Virus record (IMG/VR): IMGVR_UViG_3300045993_000286
Span: 1-21,693 of that record
Source of the DNA: a virus
Reading direction: 5' to 3' (one strand)
DNA: 21,693 nt
Positions 6,868 to 20,429 of the stretch are shown here, piece by piece; the first letter of the stretch is position 1; every line of letters starts with the position of its first letter. A program made the translations under genes and the position numbers. Under the pieces are notes generated by a model. That model did not search any database and was not told the origin of the DNA. It saw only the letters and a list, made by a program, of their open reading frames with translations.

Positions 6868-8852
6868 TGTGCGACCATGCCTTGCTGTGATTTCTGAAGC
6901 TCAACTATGATATCTTCCATAGGATAGCCTTGATGTTCAGCGGCTAGTGCGGTCAATGCAGTCTGCTCATCTACCCCGTACTGTTGCATAACGGCTTGAG
7001 TGTTAGCTTGCATTTCCTCTGGGCTTGGCTGTCCCTGTGGTTGCTGTTCCATATTCTCTTGTGGCATTTCTGGGCCGGCATCTTGCATTTGCTCTTGTGG
7101 TAGTTCTTGACCCATTCCCTGCATAGGTAGTCCAGTCATAGGGTCTACACCCATTTGATTCTGTGCCATTTCCTCTGGGCTTATATCTACAATGATTTTA
7201 TCGTTGTCTGATGTTAGACCTATAATCTCAGAGAATAACTCGCCTTTGTTTAGCTTCTTGCCGGACATAGCTAGGCTTTGGTCAATAGTTGGGTCTGCTG
7301 CAGTTAGTTCTGCGACTTTCATAAGTCCCTCTAGTTTGTCTGCATCATCTTGGGCTTTGTCTTGCTCTGGGTCTACGGTAAAGTCAAAGGTAGCTCGGAT
7401 AGTATCCCATTCAACCTCAACCTCATTGCTTAACTCGCCTTCTTCATTCTCTTGGAACTCCATACCGGCTTTCATAAGTATCTCGCGCTCGTCGTCGGTT
7501 AGCTTAACTAGGTCTTTGCCGTCCATGTTTGCGAAGTGAGTGTTTATCATAGACTTGGCTACTGCTGCGTAGGTTATGTACAGGTTGTCTTTGAAGTCCT
7601 CATCATCTATTGATAGGCTTGCTGCTTGAAACTTAACACCTGCTGGGGTCTTAGAATATTGCGGATCACCTGCACCGGCAGCTATTGAAGTGTCACCTGT
7701 AGGGATAAGTTGGTTTAGTGAAGTCTTGTACATTGCCATGCGTTCAGGTAAGGCTTGGTATATCTGATTACTCATCTCCATGCGCTGTACTTGGGCATTG
7801 CCAGTAAACCATAGTGCGTCTTGTGAGTAGACTAGTGATTCAAGGTCTGCGCTATCAGCATCGCCGGCTACTTCAATTGGTGGTCGTAGGCCTAGCTGGG
7901 TGGCTAGAACATCTGCCTGTCTCATATAATCAAGCACGTTCTGCGTGCCACCAGCTAGCTTTACAATACCAGTTCCGTATGGGTTGATAAAGTCTTGGTA
8001 ACAATATAGGAAGTGTATGCATGAGTCACCAGTTGGATCAGGGTTAGACCACTCACGAACTGTTGAGTCTGTAGCTTTGTGGTACATGTAGAATGGTGCT
8101 TCTATTCCTTTCTGTACAGCAATACAGAACTTGAAACCTTTAGGTCTGGTGTTCTTTTCGTTTTCCTGTCTAGGTGTGTCTTGTGGGTCTCTTTCTTCTT
8201 TATAGTTTCCAGCTAGAATTTTCTCAAGAGCAGTGATATCCCACTTGTTTACACTATCATCTTTCTCGCCTTCAGCTTTGTCTTCTTTATGGTCGGCATT
8301 CTCTTTCTTGGCCTGTTCAATCATGTTTTCAAGCTGGAGCTTTGTGTAGTAGATGTCCCAGAACTGTACGTCTGAATCATAGTCAGATACTTTGCCTGGT
8401 TCAAGTACTACGTCTTGAGGTTGTGCAACTATAAAGTCAGCGTGTCTACGGCCGTCTTTGTCTACAAATATTGTTATAAGAGGGACTGAACCGTATATAG
8501 CTGCTTTACGTACTGCGTCTTTCCATTTACGAATAAAGGGTGCTTGAGTGTTAGCATAAGGGATTATTTCATTCTGCCAGATAATGTTAGCGAGTTCACC
8601 AACCCATGCTTCATCACGGTCAATAGCTTTGGCTGTGCCGGTAAGCTTGCTGGATACAATTCTTTTAGGGAGCTTAAATAATGCAGCAGATAGACTGCCA
8701 TCATTGACTTCGGGTAGGTTAGTATCTAAACCCTCCATTAAACCGTTGTCGGCTAGTCGTTCATAAGATGGGTAGTCCTCACGCCATATCTTTGCTTCGA
8801 TCTTGGATTCGGTATATATCTGCTTAAGGTCTGAGGTCTTGAGGTATGCCAT
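6864..8852 (-). CDS. Portal protein
   Basis: A 662-aa protein of the size of large tailed-phage portals, forming the dodecameric ring at one capsid vertex through which DNA enters and leaves. Supporting features are the N-terminal helical domain (YLKTSDLKQIYTESK), a mid-protein segment YCYQDFINPYGTGIVKLAGG followed by QNVLDYMRQADVLATQLGL, and TPAGVKFQAASLSIDDEDF. The last is the type of long stem-helix region after a TPxG motif seen in portals. The C-terminal 110 residues form a Gln/Met/Pro/Glu-rich low-complexity tail, unusual and perhaps an internal barrel or flexible extension. I chose the ATG at 8852, four bases after AAGGA, over a GTG at 8867. Position between terminase and scaffold is canonical. 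The exact portal subfamily is not resolved. Confidence 0.85.
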   Translation of the reverse strand: MAYLKTSDLKQIYTESKIEAKIWREDYPSYERLADNGLMEGLDTNLPEVNDGSLSAALFKLPKRIVSSKLTGTAKAIDRDEAWVGELANIIWQNEIIPYANTQAPFIRKWKDAVRKAAIYGSVPLITIFVDKDGRRHADFIVAQPQDVVLEPGKVSDYDSDVQFWDIYYTKLQLENMIEQAKKENADHKEDKAEGEKDDSVNKWDITALEKILAGNYKEERDPQDTPRQENEKNTRPKGFKFCIAVQKGIEAPFYMYHKATDSTVREWSNPDPTGDSCIHFLYCYQDFINPYGTGIVKLAGGTQNVLDYMRQADVLATQLGLRPPIEVAGDADSADLESLVYSQDALWFTGNAQVQRMEMSNQIYQALPERMAMYKTSLNQLIPTGDTSIAAGAGDPQYSKTPAGVKFQAASLSIDDEDFKDNLYITYAAVAKSMINTHFANMDGKDLVKLTDDEREILMKAGMEFQENEEGELSNEVEVEWDTIRATFDFTVDPEQDKAQDDADKLEGLMKVAELTAADPTIDQSLAMSGKKLNKGELFSEIIGLTSDNDKIIVDISPEEMAQNQMGVDPMTGLPMQGMGQELPQEQMQDAGPEMPQENMEQQPQGQPSPEEMQANTQAVMQQYGVDEQTALTALAAEHQGYPMEDIIVELQKSQQGMVAQ

Positions 8853-10971: not shown

Positions 10972-11290
10972 CGGTCATGTCCTCATATTTATGGGTTATT
11001 TCGCCTGTGCTTTCTACTGACACTGTTGGCCTACCTTCTAGTCTGTCCAATAACTCCCTAACTGCTTTTAGATTGCCCTTCCTGGCCTGACTTATCATTA
11101 TCATGTCTATCTGCTCCATGACACTAAAGTCCTCTAACTCTCCGGTTACGGGGTTCTGCATCTTCTCCGTTAGCTTTAGTAATCTCTGCAATCTAGTCTT
11201 GCTGTGTTCTATACCCTTTGGCTTACCGGCTGGGTTGCCCGATTGACCTGGCTTGAACTTGTGACCGACTATATTTTCTGGATTAGGCAT
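10922..11290 (-). CDS. DUF5681-type protein, putative small terminase/packaging subunit
   Basis: The N-terminus contains KFKPGQSGNPAGKPKG (residues about 12-27), the signature of DUF5681 proteins, which usually sit directly upstream of phage terminase large subunits as here. The rest (EHSKTRLQRLLKLTEKMQNP to the Arg/Asp-rich C-terminus) is helical. A role in DNA recognition during packaging, replacing a classical small terminase, is inferred from synteny. The start ATG overlaps the methyltransferase stop by a few bases, and the end overlaps TerL by 50 nt, so expression is coupled to both. It has no Cys and no membrane segment. Confidence 0.75.
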   Translation of the reverse strand: MPNPENIVGHKFKPGQSGNPAGKPKGIEHSKTRLQRLLKLTEKMQNPVTGELEDFSVMEQIDMIMISQARKGNLKAVRELLDRLEGRPTVSVESTGEITHKYEDMTDEQLDAVIKARQDRLS

Positions 11291-12059
11291 TTCGCTGTTC
11301 CTTCGCTGATATTGCCGGTGTTAATTCTTCCCAATTCTCGGGCAGTTGATTGTCTGGTTGTATAAACTTAGCGTAGCGTTTGCGTATAACGTCCACATAC
11401 TTAGGGTCAAGCTCCATACCATAACAAGTACGGTCTGTTTGTTCACAAGCTATTAGGGTAGAGCCGGAGCCGAGGAATAGGTCAACTACAGTCTTTGCTT
11501 CTGGGTGATTGTGTATAGCCTTGGCCATTAGCTCTAGTGGTTTCATTGTTGGGTGAACATCGTTGGTGTTGGGTCTTTTATATTCCCACACGTCAACTTG
11601 TGTCCTATCTTTCAAATGCTCTATCTTATCTCCCTCAAACCAACCATAAAAACAAGCTTCATACCTTTTTTGATAATCTGAACGACCTGGTACTAGCCTG
11701 TCCTTATACAGTATTAGTGTTGATGACCAATGTATACCACTCTCTATAAATGCAAGTGTCATCTTCATACCATCAGGGCCTGGAGCATGACAGGCGTATA
11801 TAGGGCCATTGGTAACAAGTCGAAGTGATGTTGCTATCCCTTTGCAGAAATCTACCCATGCGTCAGCACCCATCTTGTCATTCAAAATGACCCCATCCTC
11901 CTCGTTTCCATTCCATTTACTACCCCATATTGGATTCTTGCTAGAGCCGTAGGCTACGTTGTACGGTGGGTCTGTAAAAACCATATCAGCGACAGTACCA
12001 TCCATGAGCTTAGCTGTATCGTTGAGGCTATCCCCACACATAACCCTATGCCTCCCCAA
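11283..12059 (-). CDS. DNA methyltransferase domain (N6-adenine/N4-cytosine), 3' half of a split ParB-methyltransferase
   Basis: Motif IV DPPY is at residues 30-33 and precedes the SAM-binding motif FLGSG (about 195-199) and HPTMKP (169-174). This is the beta-group order of amino-methyltransferases that act on DNA bases in the exocyclic amino group. The first residues, LGRHRVMCGDS, are the standard entry into this domain after a ParB-like N-domain in fused phage and plasmid methylases. Here that N-domain is encoded just upstream in another frame. The reading frame is open back to a TAG at 12102-12104, right at a run of nine G. No good independent start codon or ribosome-binding site exists; TTG at 12059 is only nominal. 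It likely protects phage DNA or regulates it; no cognate restriction enzyme is seen. Confidence 0.85.
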   Translation of the reverse strand: MGRHRVMCGDSLNDTAKLMDGTVADMVFTDPPYNVAYGSSKNPIWGSKWNGNEEDGVILNDKMGADAWVDFCKGIATSLRLVTNGPIYACHAPGPDGMKMTLAFIESGIHWSSTLILYKDRLVPGRSDYQKRYEACFYGWFEGDKIEHLKDRTQVDVWEYKRPNTNDVHPTMKPLELMAKAIHNHPEAKTVVDLFLGSGSTLIACEQTDRTCYGMELDPKYVDVIRKRYAKFIQPDNQLPENWEELTPAISAKEQRNA

Positions 12060-12510
12060 CTGATAAACAGTGCCTAGGACACTTAAGGCAACGCCCCCCC
12101 CCTACTTCAGGTGCTTCATCTTCTTCAACTTCTTCATCGTTAAATCCAGCCGGTAGGTCTAAGCCCCAGTCATCAAGTAGTTCTGTATCCCATTCGTTAG
12201 CTAGGACATCCCAGTCCCACTCACCACCTGATACGTTGTCTTTTATAATGAATTCGTTTTGCTTTTCCTCTGACCAGTCCACTATCTTGACAGGCACTTC
12301 TTTAATCCCTGCTTCTTTAGCTGCTTTAAACCGCATGTTACCACCTAGGATAATATGGTCTTTGTTTACTACTATCTCTCGTGCTTCAAGCATTTCTGGG
12401 AAGTCTTTTAGTGACTGTACTAGCTTTTTGAATTTATCGTCTTTGATAAGTCTGGGGTTGTTCGGGTTAGGTTTGATCTCTGTAACTTTGAGAGTCTCAG
12501 GTATCGGCAT
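12046..12510 (-). CDS. ParB/Srx-like N-terminal domain, 5' half of a split ParB-methyltransferase
   Basis: The 154-aa frame starts at an ATG with AGGAAA upstream. Residues 1-90 match the ParB/sulfiredoxin-like domain: NPRLIKDDKFKKLVQSLKDF, then the hallmark ILGGNMRFKAAKEAGIKEVP. An acidic linker DEEVEEDEAPEV follows. After three glycines encoded by the nine-G run the frame goes astray into RCLKCPRHCLSVGEA and stops. One base skipped in the run would instead read GGGVALSVLGTVYQLGRHRV straight into the methyltransferase, the expected fused architecture. The foreign 15-residue tail is therefore probably a consequence of the shift. In such fusions the ParB-like part is thought to contribute DNA binding or nuclease-like activity. 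That function is inference. Confidence 0.85.
   Translation of the reverse strand: MPIPETLKVTEIKPNPNNPRLIKDDKFKKLVQSLKDFPEMLEAREIVVNKDHIILGGNMRFKAAKEAGIKEVPVKIVDWSEEKQNEFIIKDNVSGGEWDWDVLANEWDTELLDDWGLDLPAGFNDEEVEEDEAPEVGGGRCLKCPRHCLSVGEA
12094..12102 (-). repeat. Nine-base C/G homopolymer at the ParB-methyltransferase frame junction
   Basis: Nine consecutive C on the plus strand (G in the message) lie exactly where the ParB-like frame and the methyltransferase frame would join. Eight G (or eleven) would fuse them; nine separates them. This is the classic arrangement of a slipped-strand switch, a programmed-frameshift site, or a homopolymer sequencing error. Confidence 0.9.
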
Positions 12511-15307: not shown

Positions 15308-15627
15308 TATTCGTTCTCCATTTCTGATCTTACTTCATTTGCTGTTTCAAGGATTCTATCTTCCATAGCTTGCATAGCTTCATCAGCTTTAGGGCAACCA
15401 ACGTGCATACCGTTAATTATTGCCCACTGATTAGTTACAAAGCTCTTGCATGTATCACAGTAGTTGCCCGTCTCCTCGATTATTGCCTCTGCATTTAATT
15501 GAAAGGCATTTAGGGCCATTACCTGCGCTCTTGTCATAGTTGTGAAGTCCATGCCCCGTACTAGTTCTAAAAGCGTCTGTGCAGTCTCTACGTCTACTAG
15601 GATTGATGTTTTACCAAAGGTATTCAT
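15307..15627 (-). CDS. Putative zinc-binding early protein (106 aa), unknown
   Basis: I place the start at the ATG at 15627, which overlaps the TAA of the preceding gene (TAATG), not at an upstream TTG. The N-terminal half is helical (VDVETAQTLLELVRGMDFTT). The C-terminal part has a Cys pair CDTC and a further Cys after HVG (HVGCPK), a partial zinc-ribbon pattern with the His as a possible fourth ligand. A Met/Glu-rich helix ends the protein. It directly precedes the recombinase gene. It could bind DNA or a replication protein, but no family is recognised. Confidence 0.6.
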   Translation of the reverse strand: MNTFGKTSILVDVETAQTLLELVRGMDFTTMTRAQVMALNAFQLNAEAIIEETGNYCDTCKSFVTNQWAIINGMHVGCPKADEAMQAMEDRILETANEVRSEMENE

Positions 15628-15842
15628 TACTGCCACTCCCAAGGTTCAGGCGCTCGGTATTCTGGGTGTCCCTCGTCATCTATTCCGTCTATATATGCAG
15701 GGGCATACATTTCACAGTCGTCACATGTCCAGCTGCTATCTTCGTCCCTGTCGATAAACTTATCTACATGAGCACATACGAAGTTATTATCCTCGTCTAG
15801 TATGTAGACTGCGTTGTCTTGTTTGATTGATATTACTGTCAT
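15627..15842 (-). CDS. Small acidic zinc-ribbon-like protein, first gene after the leftward early promoter (71 aa)
   Basis: The first gene of the leftward transcript from the promoter at 15875-15903. The ATG at 15842 follows AAAGGG within a leader also found at two other promoters; a GTG 18 nt upstream is less likely because it would lie on the ribosome-binding site itself. The protein has TVISIKQDNAVYILDEDN, then Cys at VCAHVD and CDDC, and a Pro/Glu/Tyr-rich tail EPWEWQ. The C...CxxC spacing suggests metal binding. Function unknown, but its leading position argues for early, high-level expression. Confidence 0.65.
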   Translation of the reverse strand: MTVISIKQDNAVYILDEDNNFVCAHVDKFIDRDEDSSWTCDDCEMYAPAYIDGIDDEGHPEYRAPEPWEWQ

Positions 15843-15844
15843 TT

Positions 15845-15868
15845 TTTTGTACCCTTTCACGTTAATAC
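15845..15868 (-). repeat. 24-bp leader repeat, copy 1 (inverted relative to 16818-16841)
   Basis: A perfect 24-bp match in opposite orientation to 16818-16841. Both copies begin GTATTAAC and end CGTGAAAGGGTACAAAA, and both lie directly between a sigma70-type promoter and the first ATG, so they share transcript 5' ends and the ribosome-binding site. A third transcript (20157-20168) shares CGTGAAAGGATT, and a fourth copy of CGTGAAAGG lies at 16732-16740 inside an antisense RNA unit. Confidence 0.9.
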
Positions 15869-15874
15869 TCTCTT

Positions 15875-15903
15875 ATGTTACAGCATTAGCTATAGTAGGT
15901 CAA
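15875..15903 (-). promoter_or_regulatory. Leftward early promoter P1 with operator in the spacer
   Basis: On the minus strand: TTGACC (15898-15903), 17-bp spacer, TAACAT (15875-15880). The spacer carries the sequence CTATAGCTAATGCTGTAA (15878-15895), which aligns with the 18-bp inverted repeats in the spacers of the promoters at 16782 and 20115. The transcript would read the zinc-ribbon gene, ERF and the downstream block. Confidence 0.7.
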
Positions 15904-15965: not shown

Positions 15966-16499
15966 CTATCCCCTGACATTTAGGATTCCTTTAGACTCTA
16001 GCTTTCTTCTTGTAGCTTCTGCTGTAGCCCGTGAGGCCCTGCTTTCAACAATTTCACCTATTGTCTTTGTATTGTCTTTGTATTGTCTTATATTGGATGT
16101 ATCACTTTTGACACTTCCCTTGTACATTTTTGATACATCACTATTACGCTTTTGATACATCACTCTAGGTTTAGATGTATCATTTTTGATACTTTTGAAT
16201 GGCTTGAATGCTTTGTTGATTGTTATTACAAGTCCGGTCGGAGTCCGCAGCGTATTTATATACCCATAGTCACGGAGTCTTTTAACATAGCGTCTGTAGT
16301 TAGCCAGGGATGTAGGGACTTCTTTGTTGAAGTCATCATACACTACAGGCTTCCCTCCAAGTACTTTGCCAAGCCCCTCCTCGCTGATACTAGTCATCTT
16401 ATCCAGTAGCCATAAGTACAACCATATAGCGTTCTTTATATTATTTGCATGTTTAGGATCGAGCAGGTCGTTCTTAACATATATTCCAAAACCTTTCAT
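15966..16499 (-). CDS. Phage replication initiator with winged-helix DNA-binding domain
   Basis: 177 aa. Residues about 10-90 form a winged helix of the phage replisome-organiser type: NAIWLYLWLLDKM, then the helix-turn region GLGKVLGGKPVVYDDFNK, VPTSLANYRRYVKRLRDYGY as recognition helix and wing TLRTPTGLVITINKA. The basic, low-complexity middle is encoded by DNA that carries iterons (16096-16194). The C-terminus is Arg/Ser-rich and helical, probably a partner-binding part. It is expected to bind its own gene at the origin and load a host or phage helicase, as lambda O does. The gene is preceded by an attenuator-like hairpin and has a weak ribosome-binding site. Role inferred from domain, origin and position. 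Confidence 0.75.
   Translation of the reverse strand: MKGFGIYVKNDLLDPKHANNIKNAIWLYLWLLDKMTSISEEGLGKVLGGKPVVYDDFNKEVPTSLANYRRYVKRLRDYGYINTLRTPTGLVITINKAFKPFKSIKNDTSKPRVMYQKRNSDVSKMYKGSVKSDTSNIRQYKDNTKTIGEIVESRASRATAEATRRKLESKGILNVRG
16059..16194. other. Putative replication origin inside the initiator gene (iterons plus AT-rich unwinding repeats)
   Basis: TTTTGA(T/C)AC occurs at 16106, 16128, 16150 and 16184. The first three are spaced 22 bp, two helical turns, and two are extended to TTTTGATACATCAC. GATGTATCA (inverted orientation) precedes the first and last, at 16096-16104 and 16174-16182. Alongside lies a tandem 11-bp repeat TATTGTCTTTG at 16059, 16070 and 16081 (last degenerate), AT-rich. 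Neither 22 nor 11 is a multiple of 3, so the repetition is a DNA-level feature, not a protein one. Iterons followed by an AT-rich tract within the initiator gene match the lambda O/ori layout. Confidence 0.75.
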
Positions 16500-16519
16500 G
16501 TTGTCTTTCTGAGGGCAAG

Positions 16520-16544
16520 AAAAAACCCTCCGGTTAAAGAGGGT
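16520..16544 (-). terminator. Intrinsic terminator / attenuator hairpin upstream of the initiator gene
   Basis: Minus-strand RNA: stem ACCCTC/GAGGGT (16539-16544 with 16525-16530), 8-nt loop, then six T. It ends only 21 bp before the initiator start codon. A competing pairing of GAGGG (16526-16530 region) with CCCTC (16511-16515 region) is possible further on, so read-through could be switched. Confidence 0.7.
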
Positions 16545-16637
16545 CGAGTTCTAATCTCCTACATATTACCATACTAACATGGCTATGTCTACCCTCTAGT
16601 TATTATTCACAAAGGGCTGATTAGAACTCTTTGCTTA
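16520..16637 (-). ncRNA. Structured RNA unit, three-way junction, ahead of the initiator gene
   Basis: Runs from the promoter at 16644-16672 to the terminator. An 11-bp perfect stem GAGTTCTAATC/GATTAGAACTC (16619-16629 with 16546-16556) encloses two hairpins. One is CCCTTTG/TAGAGGG (about 16593-16616), 7 bp with two wobbles. The other is ACATAgCCAT/ATGGtaaTATGT (about 16559-16588). The terminator stem follows immediately. The pattern is that of a folded small RNA or a riboswitch-like attenuator controlling the initiator. I do not recognise a known family. Confidence 0.6.
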
Positions 16638-16643
16638 TATCCA

Positions 16644-16672
16644 ATTATAAACCAACTTGCTATTGCTTGCAA
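16644..16672 (-). promoter_or_regulatory. Leftward promoter for structured RNA / initiator gene
   Basis: Minus strand: TTGCAA (16667-16672), exactly 17 bp, TATAAT (16644-16649, perfect -10). The predicted start is near 16636-16638. It lacks the 18-bp operator shared by the three early promoters, so it is probably constitutive or regulated only at the attenuator. Confidence 0.7.
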
Positions 16673-16677
16673 CCATG

Positions 16678-16705
16678 AAAAAAGCGCCAGGGCGGGCTGG
16701 CGCTT
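16678..16705 (-). terminator. Strong intrinsic terminator
   Basis: Minus-strand RNA: 9-bp GC-rich stem AAGCGCCAG/CTGGCGCTT (16697-16705 with 16682-16690), 6-nt loop, followed by at least six T (16678-16683). It is not a plus-strand terminator because no T-run follows on that strand. It closes the short RNA that starts near 16759. Confidence 0.9.
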
Positions 16706-16759
16706 CTCGTAACAGTCTACTAAAAAGAGTCCGTGAAAGGATTGTTTATCTACTGTTAC
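16678..16759 (-). ncRNA. Putative ~82-nt small RNA with loop complementary to early-mRNA leaders
   Basis: An extended -10 promoter (16766-16774) predicts a start at 16759, exactly the first base of an 8-bp perfect stem GTAACAGT/ACTGTTAC (16752-16759 with 16709-16716). The 35-nt loop contains AATCCTTTCACG (complement of 16732-16743), and the molecule ends in the strong terminator hairpin with a U tail. That loop sequence is perfectly complementary over 12 nt to the leader at 20157-20168 and over 9 nt to those at 16825-16833 and 15852-15860, covering their Shine-Dalgarno sequences. This is the layout of a trans-acting antisense small RNA. Confidence 0.65.
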
Positions 16760-16765
16760 AAATAC

Positions 16766-16774
16766 ATTATACCA
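16766..16774 (-). promoter_or_regulatory. Extended -10 promoter for the small RNA
   Basis: Minus strand TGGTATAAT: perfect -10 (16766-16771) with a TG extension one base upstream (16772-16774). No good -35 at 17 bp, as is usual for extended -10 promoters. It lies back-to-back with the rightward early promoter; its upstream DNA overlaps that promoter's -35 and operator, so a repressor bound there could also affect it. Confidence 0.55.
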
Positions 16775-16781
16775 AACTTAT

Positions 16782-16810
16782 TTGACAATGTATAACGTTA
16801 GCTATATACT
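16782..16810 (+). promoter_or_regulatory. Rightward early promoter P2 with operator in the spacer
   Basis: TTGACA (16782-16787, perfect), 17 bp, TATACT (16805-16810). The spacer carries GTATAACGTTAGCTATAT (16790-16807), an inverted repeat GTATAAC-N4-GCTATAT that matches, in reverse orientation, the operator at 20126-20143. It drives the array of small plus-strand genes via the shared 24-bp leader. Confidence 0.85.
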
Positions 16811-16817
16811 GGTCTTT

Positions 16818-16841
16818 GTATTAACGTGAAAGGGTACAAAA
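16818..16841 (+). repeat. 24-bp leader repeat, copy 2
   Basis: Identical to the reverse complement of 15845-15868. It extends from shortly after the -10 of P2 to the A of the first ATG and contains the ribosome-binding site AAAGGG. It makes the two divergent early transcripts identical at their 5' leaders. Confidence 0.9.
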
Positions 16842-17002
16842 TGAAGATAAACTTAACACAGAAAGACATATACTATCTTTTACGTGTAACTAGCTACAAC
16901 GCTGTAGACAATACTTCAGAGGGAGTCAAAGAAGATAGGCGAGTCTATAATAAACTTAAGAAGCAGATGGAAAGCTACGACTACGTAGTGGAGAAATTTT
17001 AA
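16841..17002 (+). CDS. Small basic/helical early protein (53 aa)
   Basis: First gene of the rightward transcript, ATG six bases after AAAGGG within the shared leader. The product begins MKINLTQKDIYYLLRVTSYN and ends MESYDYVVEKF; it is helical, Tyr- and Lys-rich, without Cys. Its stop overlaps the next start (TAATG). No family recognised. Being first after a strong promoter suggests abundant early expression, typical of host-takeover peptides, but function is unknown. Confidence 0.65.
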   Translation: MKINLTQKDIYYLLRVTSYNAVDNTSEGVKEDRRVYNKLKKQMESYDYVVEKF

Positions 17003-19912: not shown

Positions 19913-20118
19913 GCGACAAGATGACACACTCGGAGAAGTTATTAAGAGCAGGTGTGCGCCGACACGGATCAGAAGAAGCCTGGCGTGAGTCTCGTGCATC
20001 AGATGGTCGCAAAGGTGGCTATACAGTTACCGAAAAGACCAAACTTAGAGGGTTCGGTGGCAACCGTGATCTAGCGGTTCAAGGTGGTCGTATAAGCAGA
20101 CCGAGAAAATCCTCTTGA
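19909..20118 (+). CDS. Small basic Gly-rich protein (69 aa), KGG-like
   Basis: ATG in an ATGA overlap with the HNH stop, after GGAGGT. Composition is basic and Gly-rich: ASDGRKGGYTV and FGGNRDLAVQGGRISRPRKS vaguely resemble the KGG repeats of stress/conidiation-type small proteins, not a firm match. Residues 5-16, MTHSEKLLRAGV, closely match the HNH protein's own N-terminus, MTHAEKLKQAGV. The TGA stop lies inside the -35 TTGACA of the next promoter. Possibly a nucleic-acid-binding peptide. Confidence 0.65.
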   Translation: MSDKMTHSEKLLRAGVRRHGSEEAWRESRASDGRKGGYTVTEKTKLRGFGGNRDLAVQGGRISRPRKSS

Positions 20119-20143
20119 CATAATGGTATAGCTAATGTTATAC
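20115..20143 (+). promoter_or_regulatory. Rightward promoter P3 with operator in the spacer
   Basis: TTGACA (20115-20120, perfect), 17 bp, TTATAC (20138-20143), or 18 bp to TATACT (20139-20144). The near-perfect inverted repeat GTATAGC-TAAT-GTTATAC (20126-20143) fills the spacer. Leader CGTGAAAGGATT at 20157-20168 is shared with the two other early leaders and matches the loop of the small RNA over 12 nt. Confidence 0.85.
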
Positions 20144-20174
20144 TGTTCAAGTAAATCGTGAAAGGATTACAACA

Positions 20175-20429
20175 ATGAAAAACAAAGTTAAGAAAATATC
20201 AACCGTCAATAAAGTAATCATAGGATCACTTCTACTGATTGCATTAACTAACCCATTCTCTGTAGGATATATGGGTTACGCTACAGAAGTAGCACTCAAG
20301 TACTTTACGCTATACAGTAGCTACGGCTTTATCGCCGGACTAGTAATACTTGCCGGAGTAAACGTGTACATGGTGGCTAAACCACAGAAGATAAATATTC
20401 CGAAGGTTAAATCAACCAGAGAAGTTTAG
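20175..20429 (+). CDS. Small two-helix membrane protein, holin candidate (84 aa)
   Basis: The start ATG follows AAAGGATTACAACA in the shared leader. Lys-rich N-terminus (MKNKVKKISTVNK), transmembrane segment VIIGSLLLIALTNPFSVGYM (residues 14-33), a second segment YGFIAGLVILAGVNVYMVA (about 50-68), then a basic C-terminus. Length and two-helix topology match class II holins, and the endolysin follows. A regulatory membrane protein or superinfection factor remains possible; being under an operator shared with early genes is unusual for a holin. Confidence 0.5.
   Translation: MKNKVKKISTVNKVIIGSLLLIALTNPFSVGYMGYATEVALKYFTLYSSYGFIAGLVILAGVNVYMVAKPQKINIPKVKSTREV

Follow-up and report, generated by a model that had tools for sequence, protein, structure and literature searches.

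The c4 RNA of phages P1 and P7 is processed from the transcript that carries its target. It pairs around the ribosome-binding site of the ant mRNA, probably via its loops, and underlies heteroimmunity, according to a 2025 review of phage RNAs (PMC12197685). The same review describes the sar RNA of P22, which blocks translation initiation of ant, and the lambda RNAs OOP and aQ, which have their own promoters and are antisense to one gene each (cII and Q), OOP acting through RNase III degradation (PMC12197685). It also covers VpdS of VP882 and PreS of lambda, trans-acting and Hfq-binding RNAs directed, respectively, at phage and host mRNAs and at the host dnaN (PMC12197685). In the open-access literature, each of the phage antisense RNAs that we compared (c4, sar, OOP and aQ) silences one gene.

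We analysed a 21.7-kb IMG/VR virus record (IMGVR_UViG_3300045993_000286; 21,693 nucleotides), the whole of which is called the window here and G000 in comparisons with other phages. We consider it probable that this uncultured phage encodes an antisense RNA that acts in trans on several of its operons. Like c4 (Rfam RF01695), the putative RNA has a loop complementary to a phage ribosome-binding region, and its specificity differs between related phages. Unlike c4, which is described against the ant mRNA only, it matches three separate operons, headed by the promoters P1, P2 and P3, and instead of being processed from a target transcript it is flanked by a promoter and terminator of its own (both predicted), in a unit that diverges from P1 and lies far from P3. 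The c4 model gave no match at the gathering score over the window and none to E = 5 within 16450-16900, which together with the predicted promoter and the three target operons places the RNA outside the c4 family; its logic is c4-like, but it is not a family member. At the gathering score, Rfam as a whole gave 0 matches over the window, with sub-threshold matches only. The sar RNA is likewise antisense at a translation start, but of one mRNA (ant) instead of three targets in separate operons. OOP and aQ are comparable as phage RNAs made from their own promoters (here a predicted one) and acting on phage genes, but neither reads a leader motif common to several operons. The RNA also resembles VpdS and PreS in being a trans-acting phage small RNA, here proposed from sequence, but neither of these is described as recognising a leader shared among the phage's own operons (PMC12197685). 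An earlier note on this DNA had called phage RNAs that target their own leaders little described; this is only partly fair, because single-target antisense RNAs at ribosome-binding sites are known from P1/P7 (c4) and P22 (sar) (PMC12197685).

Among 50,697 deposited phages we found no near relative of the window, the best matches to its terminase being ~24-29% identical. Its left-going genes encode structure, packaging and replication functions (terminase, ERF, DnaD-like), and its right-going genes comprise small ORFs, an HNH protein, a small protein with a hydrophobic stretch and a CHAP lysin. The RNA locus is a divergent region of ~340 bp, from 16500 to 16840. P1 leads into small ORFs, P2 into replication and recombination genes (ERF), and P3 into an 84-aa protein with a hydrophobic stretch and then a CHAP-domain lysin, so the P3 unit may be a lysis cassette. 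The 'three early operons' proposed previously are therefore only partly upheld, and the wording is loose. Searches for an integrase, a serine recombinase and an HTH_3 repressor returned nothing above cut-off in ten records. Elsewhere in the window, a gene with a ParB-like N-terminal domain adjoins an N6/N4 DNA methylase gene (11283-12510, minus strand).

The predicted small RNA unit has the following features:

16766-16794, minus strand: predicted small RNA promoter, TATACA-17-TATAAT with TGG before the -10; its -35 overlaps the P1 operator-like site
16678-16760, minus strand: predicted small RNA of ~82 nt, with the 5' end near 16760 and the 3' end in a T run at 16678 (folding)
16752-16759, minus strand: 5' arm of the closing stem, GTAACAGT (folding)
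16732-16743, minus strand: anti-leader loop segment AATCCTTTCACG, exact complement of 20157-20168
16709-16716, minus strand: 3' arm of the closing stem, ACTGTTAC (folding)
16678-16706, minus strand: intrinsic terminator, GAAGCGCCAG-CCCGCC-CTGGCGCTTTTTT (folding)

The promoter matches the consensus at 10 of 12 positions and has an extended -10. In the 10 kb scanned, the four best promoter-like sites were P1, P3, that of the small RNA and that of the next unit; in total there were 20 such sites versus 26.2 in shuffled sequences, which is no excess. The closing stem is 8 bp long, and together with the terminator it folds at -30.4 kcal/mol (z = -5.85). The terminator scored -14.9 kcal/mol in a folding scan and was missing from the listing of a standard terminator scan. 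The hairpin without the terminator is less striking and only mildly unusual (z = -2.11), so the structural claim leans mainly on the architecture and its recurrence. These values agree with the extended -10 promoter, 8-bp stem and strong terminator first proposed for the locus, which is predicted to be a short non-coding unit with its own promoter and intrinsic terminator.

The three operons begin with these promoters (promoter scan) and leaders:

16782-16810, plus strand: promoter P1, TTGACA-17-TATACT
16825-16835, plus strand: leader 1 target, CGTGAAAGGGT, including the Shine-Dalgarno of gene 16841-17002
15875-15903, minus strand: promoter P2, TTGACC-17-TAACAT
15851-15861, minus strand: leader 2 target, CGTGAAAGGGT, including the Shine-Dalgarno of gene 15627-15842
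20115-20144, plus strand: promoter P3, TTGACA-18-TATACT, extended -10
20157-20168, plus strand: leader 3 target, CGTGAAAGGATT, including the Shine-Dalgarno of gene 20175-20429

The loop pairs with leaders 1 and 2, which have 22 nt in common, over 9 Watson-Crick nt each (11 with one G-U) and with leader 3 over 12 nt (13 with one G-U). The motif CGTGAAAGG occurs four times in the window, at 16825-16833 (plus), 20157-20165 (plus), 15853-15861 (minus) and 16732-16740 (plus), the last copy being the complement of the RNA loop, and the 12-nt CGTGAAAGGATT is exact at 20157-20168 and 16732-16743. The complementarity to three leaders that the earlier note had reported is thus present at the positions it gave, except that 15852-15860 should read 15853-15861. 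Shuffled sequences predict 0.12 copies of CGTGAAAGG, and 0 of 100 shuffles reached four. Only 3 of the 43 genes carry the motif, all of them promoter-proximal, and the remaining genes have varied Shine-Dalgarno sequences, so it is not simply the usual Shine-Dalgarno of the phage. When the 156 Shine-Dalgarno-bearing starts of the window were ordered by duplex energy, the leaders ranked 1, 3 and 4, rank 2 being a short ORF that lies antisense to a large gene. The summed pairing run was equalled by 1 of 20,000 shuffled loops in G000 and by the same proportion in G006, one of the relatives described below; judged on energy only, the G006 loop stands out less, being equalled by 126 of 5000 shuffles. 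Co-folding of the full RNA with a leader cannot represent the pairing of a loop within a closed stem. The complementarity between loop and leaders is genuine and clearly exceeds what chance would give.

The spacers of P1, P2 and P3 also hold a 16-bp imperfect palindrome:

16791-16806, minus strand: operator-like site TATAGCTAACGTTATA in P1, inverted relative to P1 and touching the -35 of the small RNA promoter
15879-15894, minus strand: operator-like site TATAGCTAATGCTGTA in P2
20127-20142, plus strand: operator-like site TATAGCTAATGTTATA in P3

None of 100 shuffles reached the three copies present in the window. The site is likely the operator for a regulator without a recognisable gene in this fragment. 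Because the three promoters share this site and its P1 copy covers part of the small RNA's own -35, transcription of the operons is probably coupled to that of the RNA; the overlap suggests a single DNA-binding protein that connects the small RNA with its targets.

Next, we compared the locus with G006 and G007, two closely related IMG/VR phages whose terminase is 76% identical to that of the window. Both have the same layout in different letters, with three promoters that share an operator-like site (A[CT]TAGCANNTG), a shared leader (CAGTAGAAAGGATT) and a divergent RNA. When these genomes were searched for the best complement outside the leaders themselves, a single location emerged: ATAATCCTTTCTA, which lies ~120 nt upstream of the first leader on the minus strand. 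This sequence is located in a hairpin loop closed by a 14-bp stem (one G-U), behind a predicted promoter (TTTACA-17-TGG-TATTAT) divergent from the first operon and with a terminator-like hairpin ~190 nt downstream; the anti-leader hairpin has a z of -4.93. The G006 loop pairs with its own leaders over 13, 12 and 13 nt. Leaders with a start codon top the ranking of the 266 starts of G006, and in G007 they rank 1, 2 and 4 of 293 starts, one leader being counted at two alternative starts. One of the three leader sites in these phages has no start codon nearby. This copy of the operator and leader (G006 29763 and G007 26525, plus strand) is followed by small ORFs and a lysozyme-like gene, and it may represent an extended leader or serve as a sponge for the small RNA.

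When loops and leaders were swapped between the phages, perfect pairing went from 9, 9 and 12 nt to 9, 9 and 9 nt for the G000 loop, and from 13, 12 and 13 nt to 6, 6 and 10 nt for the G006 loop; in energy, two of the six foreign leaders are almost as good partners for the G000 loop as its own leaders. The closing stems of the G000 and G006/G007 RNAs are unrelated in sequence, and both pair along their length. Since GAAAGGATT is common to both phages it was not counted as covariation, and the truly compensatory base-pair positions, in the differing flank, number about two. Moreover, G006 and G007 barely differ in this RNA and count as one independent lineage. Short complementarity to targets elsewhere in the genome is thus kept by covariation in G000 and G006/G007, with one independent change; loss of complementarity in relatives had been proposed as the refuting outcome, and here both loop and leaders changed with the complementarity kept. 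This matched layout, like the operator-like sites, the stem, the terminator and the complementarity in the window, is directly seen or computed.

A further contig, 3300017780_003413 (G043), has a Rad52 80% identical to that of G007, together with an operator-like GCGTWAGCTTGTG, the leader GAAAGGACAA before several genes and a divergent hairpin-plus-terminator RNA. Its RNA has only 7 nt of complementarity to the leaders, so we do not count G043 as support, and the layout is more widespread than the demonstrated pairing. Upstream of its first operon (L146, 4900-5560) there are at least two, probably three, tandem terminated units on the minus strand, which resemble the tandem units of the window. 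The CGTGAAAGG set was found in no other terminase relative by exact motif search of 43 records, nor was a system of the G000/G006/G007 type; DNA similarity of the region to relatives yielded nothing useful, and a scan of the collection found no exact loop-plus-terminator pattern. The 17-nt G006 leader, used as a collection pattern, was found only in G006, G007 and three contigs in which it does not precede a gene. A general scan that matched terminators to all starts produced largely noise. We also used a stricter scan over ~1.4 Mb, requiring a promoter, a closing stem and a non-self complement of at least 9 nt; an earlier version of it was dominated by self-antisense matches. G000 and G006/G007 were among its top rows, the others being mostly intracoding or antisense to the leader itself.

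Other structured units lie near these RNAs. Immediately downstream of the small RNA, and directly followed by the DnaD-like gene (15966-16499), is:

16518-16637, minus strand: second structured unit, with a promoter at 16672-16644 and a terminator at 16545-16520

It has an 11-bp closing stem with two inner hairpins (-43.7 kcal/mol, z = -6.16) and could be a second RNA or an attenuator. The AGAGGGT of an inner hairpin could pair with the ACCCTCT of the terminator. A comparable two-hairpin structure follows the anti-leader hairpin in G006/G007. These two phages also have, at 26600-26765 in G006 and 22790-22955 in G007 (plus strand), a promoter and then a long inverted repeat (AAATAGCATAGGAAGTAACGG / CCGTTACACATCCTGTGCTATTT) with a second promoter-like site and a terminator after it. 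Finally, similar stretches (TACCCCCTACTyGrACTATC...) follow short terminated units in G006 (~27345-27385, plus) and G012 (~7590-7640, minus), otherwise diverged phages, and are possibly another small RNA family.

The main rival to an antisense RNA is a DNA operator, in which CGTGAAAGG and its G006/G007 counterpart would bind a phage regulator, the copy in the divergent unit would be a fourth operator and one protein would drive the covariation. The leader sites do lie at a similar distance (+7 to +9) from each predicted start site, and all copies changed together in G006/G007, as a shared DNA-binding site would also do. However, the site coincides with the Shine-Dalgarno, where a ribosome-binding constraint is already present, and each promoter already has a separate operator-like element. 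In both phages the divergent unit carries its copy in reverse orientation, inside the loop of a closed stem, and the position differs between the two (~+17 versus ~+35), as would not be expected of an operator bound at a promoter. Taking both sides together, we regard a DNA operator as unlikely. There is still less to recommend the idea that the RNA works on ribosomes or host RNAs, whether as a sponge, a decoy or an imitation of the 16S anti-Shine-Dalgarno, with the leader match a by-product of CCUUUC. This short motif resembles the 3' end of 16S rRNA, and anti-Shine-Dalgarno loops match some leaders anyway; on the other hand, the match runs past both ends of the Shine-Dalgarno and, from one phage to the other, varies along with the leaders, and a typical 16S tail reaches only -4.8 to -6.0 kcal/mol with the leaders versus -14.6 to -18.4 for the loops. 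We give similarly little credence to chance or shared ancestry, by which an inverted leader fragment would have been copied into a terminator-bearing spacer with no regulatory role: the same leader letters do recur around the genome, most extensively in leaders 1 and 2, but the similarity ends at 12 nt with unmatched flanks, the arrangement recurs with other letters in G006/G007, and the shuffled loops rarely do as well in either phage. An antitoxin of a type I toxin-antitoxin system, with small membrane toxins as targets, would suit the hydrophobic stretch of the target 3 protein and the further small ORFs after P1, but it is most improbable for three unrelated targets on two strands, as opposed to one pair, which include the start of a replication and recombination operon.

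In the antisense model that we favour, transcription of the small RNA would start at its own promoter, proceed divergently from P1 and stop at the intrinsic terminator. The closing stem of the RNA would present a loop of ~35 nt, which would base-pair across the Shine-Dalgarno in the short 5' leader of each of the P1, P2 and P3 transcripts. Such pairing would most likely lower ribosome entry, and translation of the three operons would fall together. We infer transcription, pairing in the cell and timing from the sequence, and repression rather than activation from the position of the target sites at the Shine-Dalgarno.

It is also conceivable, although doubtful in our estimation, that the locus is a two-layer module, in which a repressor-type operator and an antisense RNA common to several operons drift in specificity as a unit, serving as an RNA-level regulator of immunity or timing. 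If this is true, the operator and the loop/leader pair would change together between phages. The loop/leader pair is short and modular. A single RNA reading a leader common to several operons would be a post-transcriptional regulon in a small phage genome, and would suggest a means by which phages could re-specify immunity or timing through a dozen base changes.
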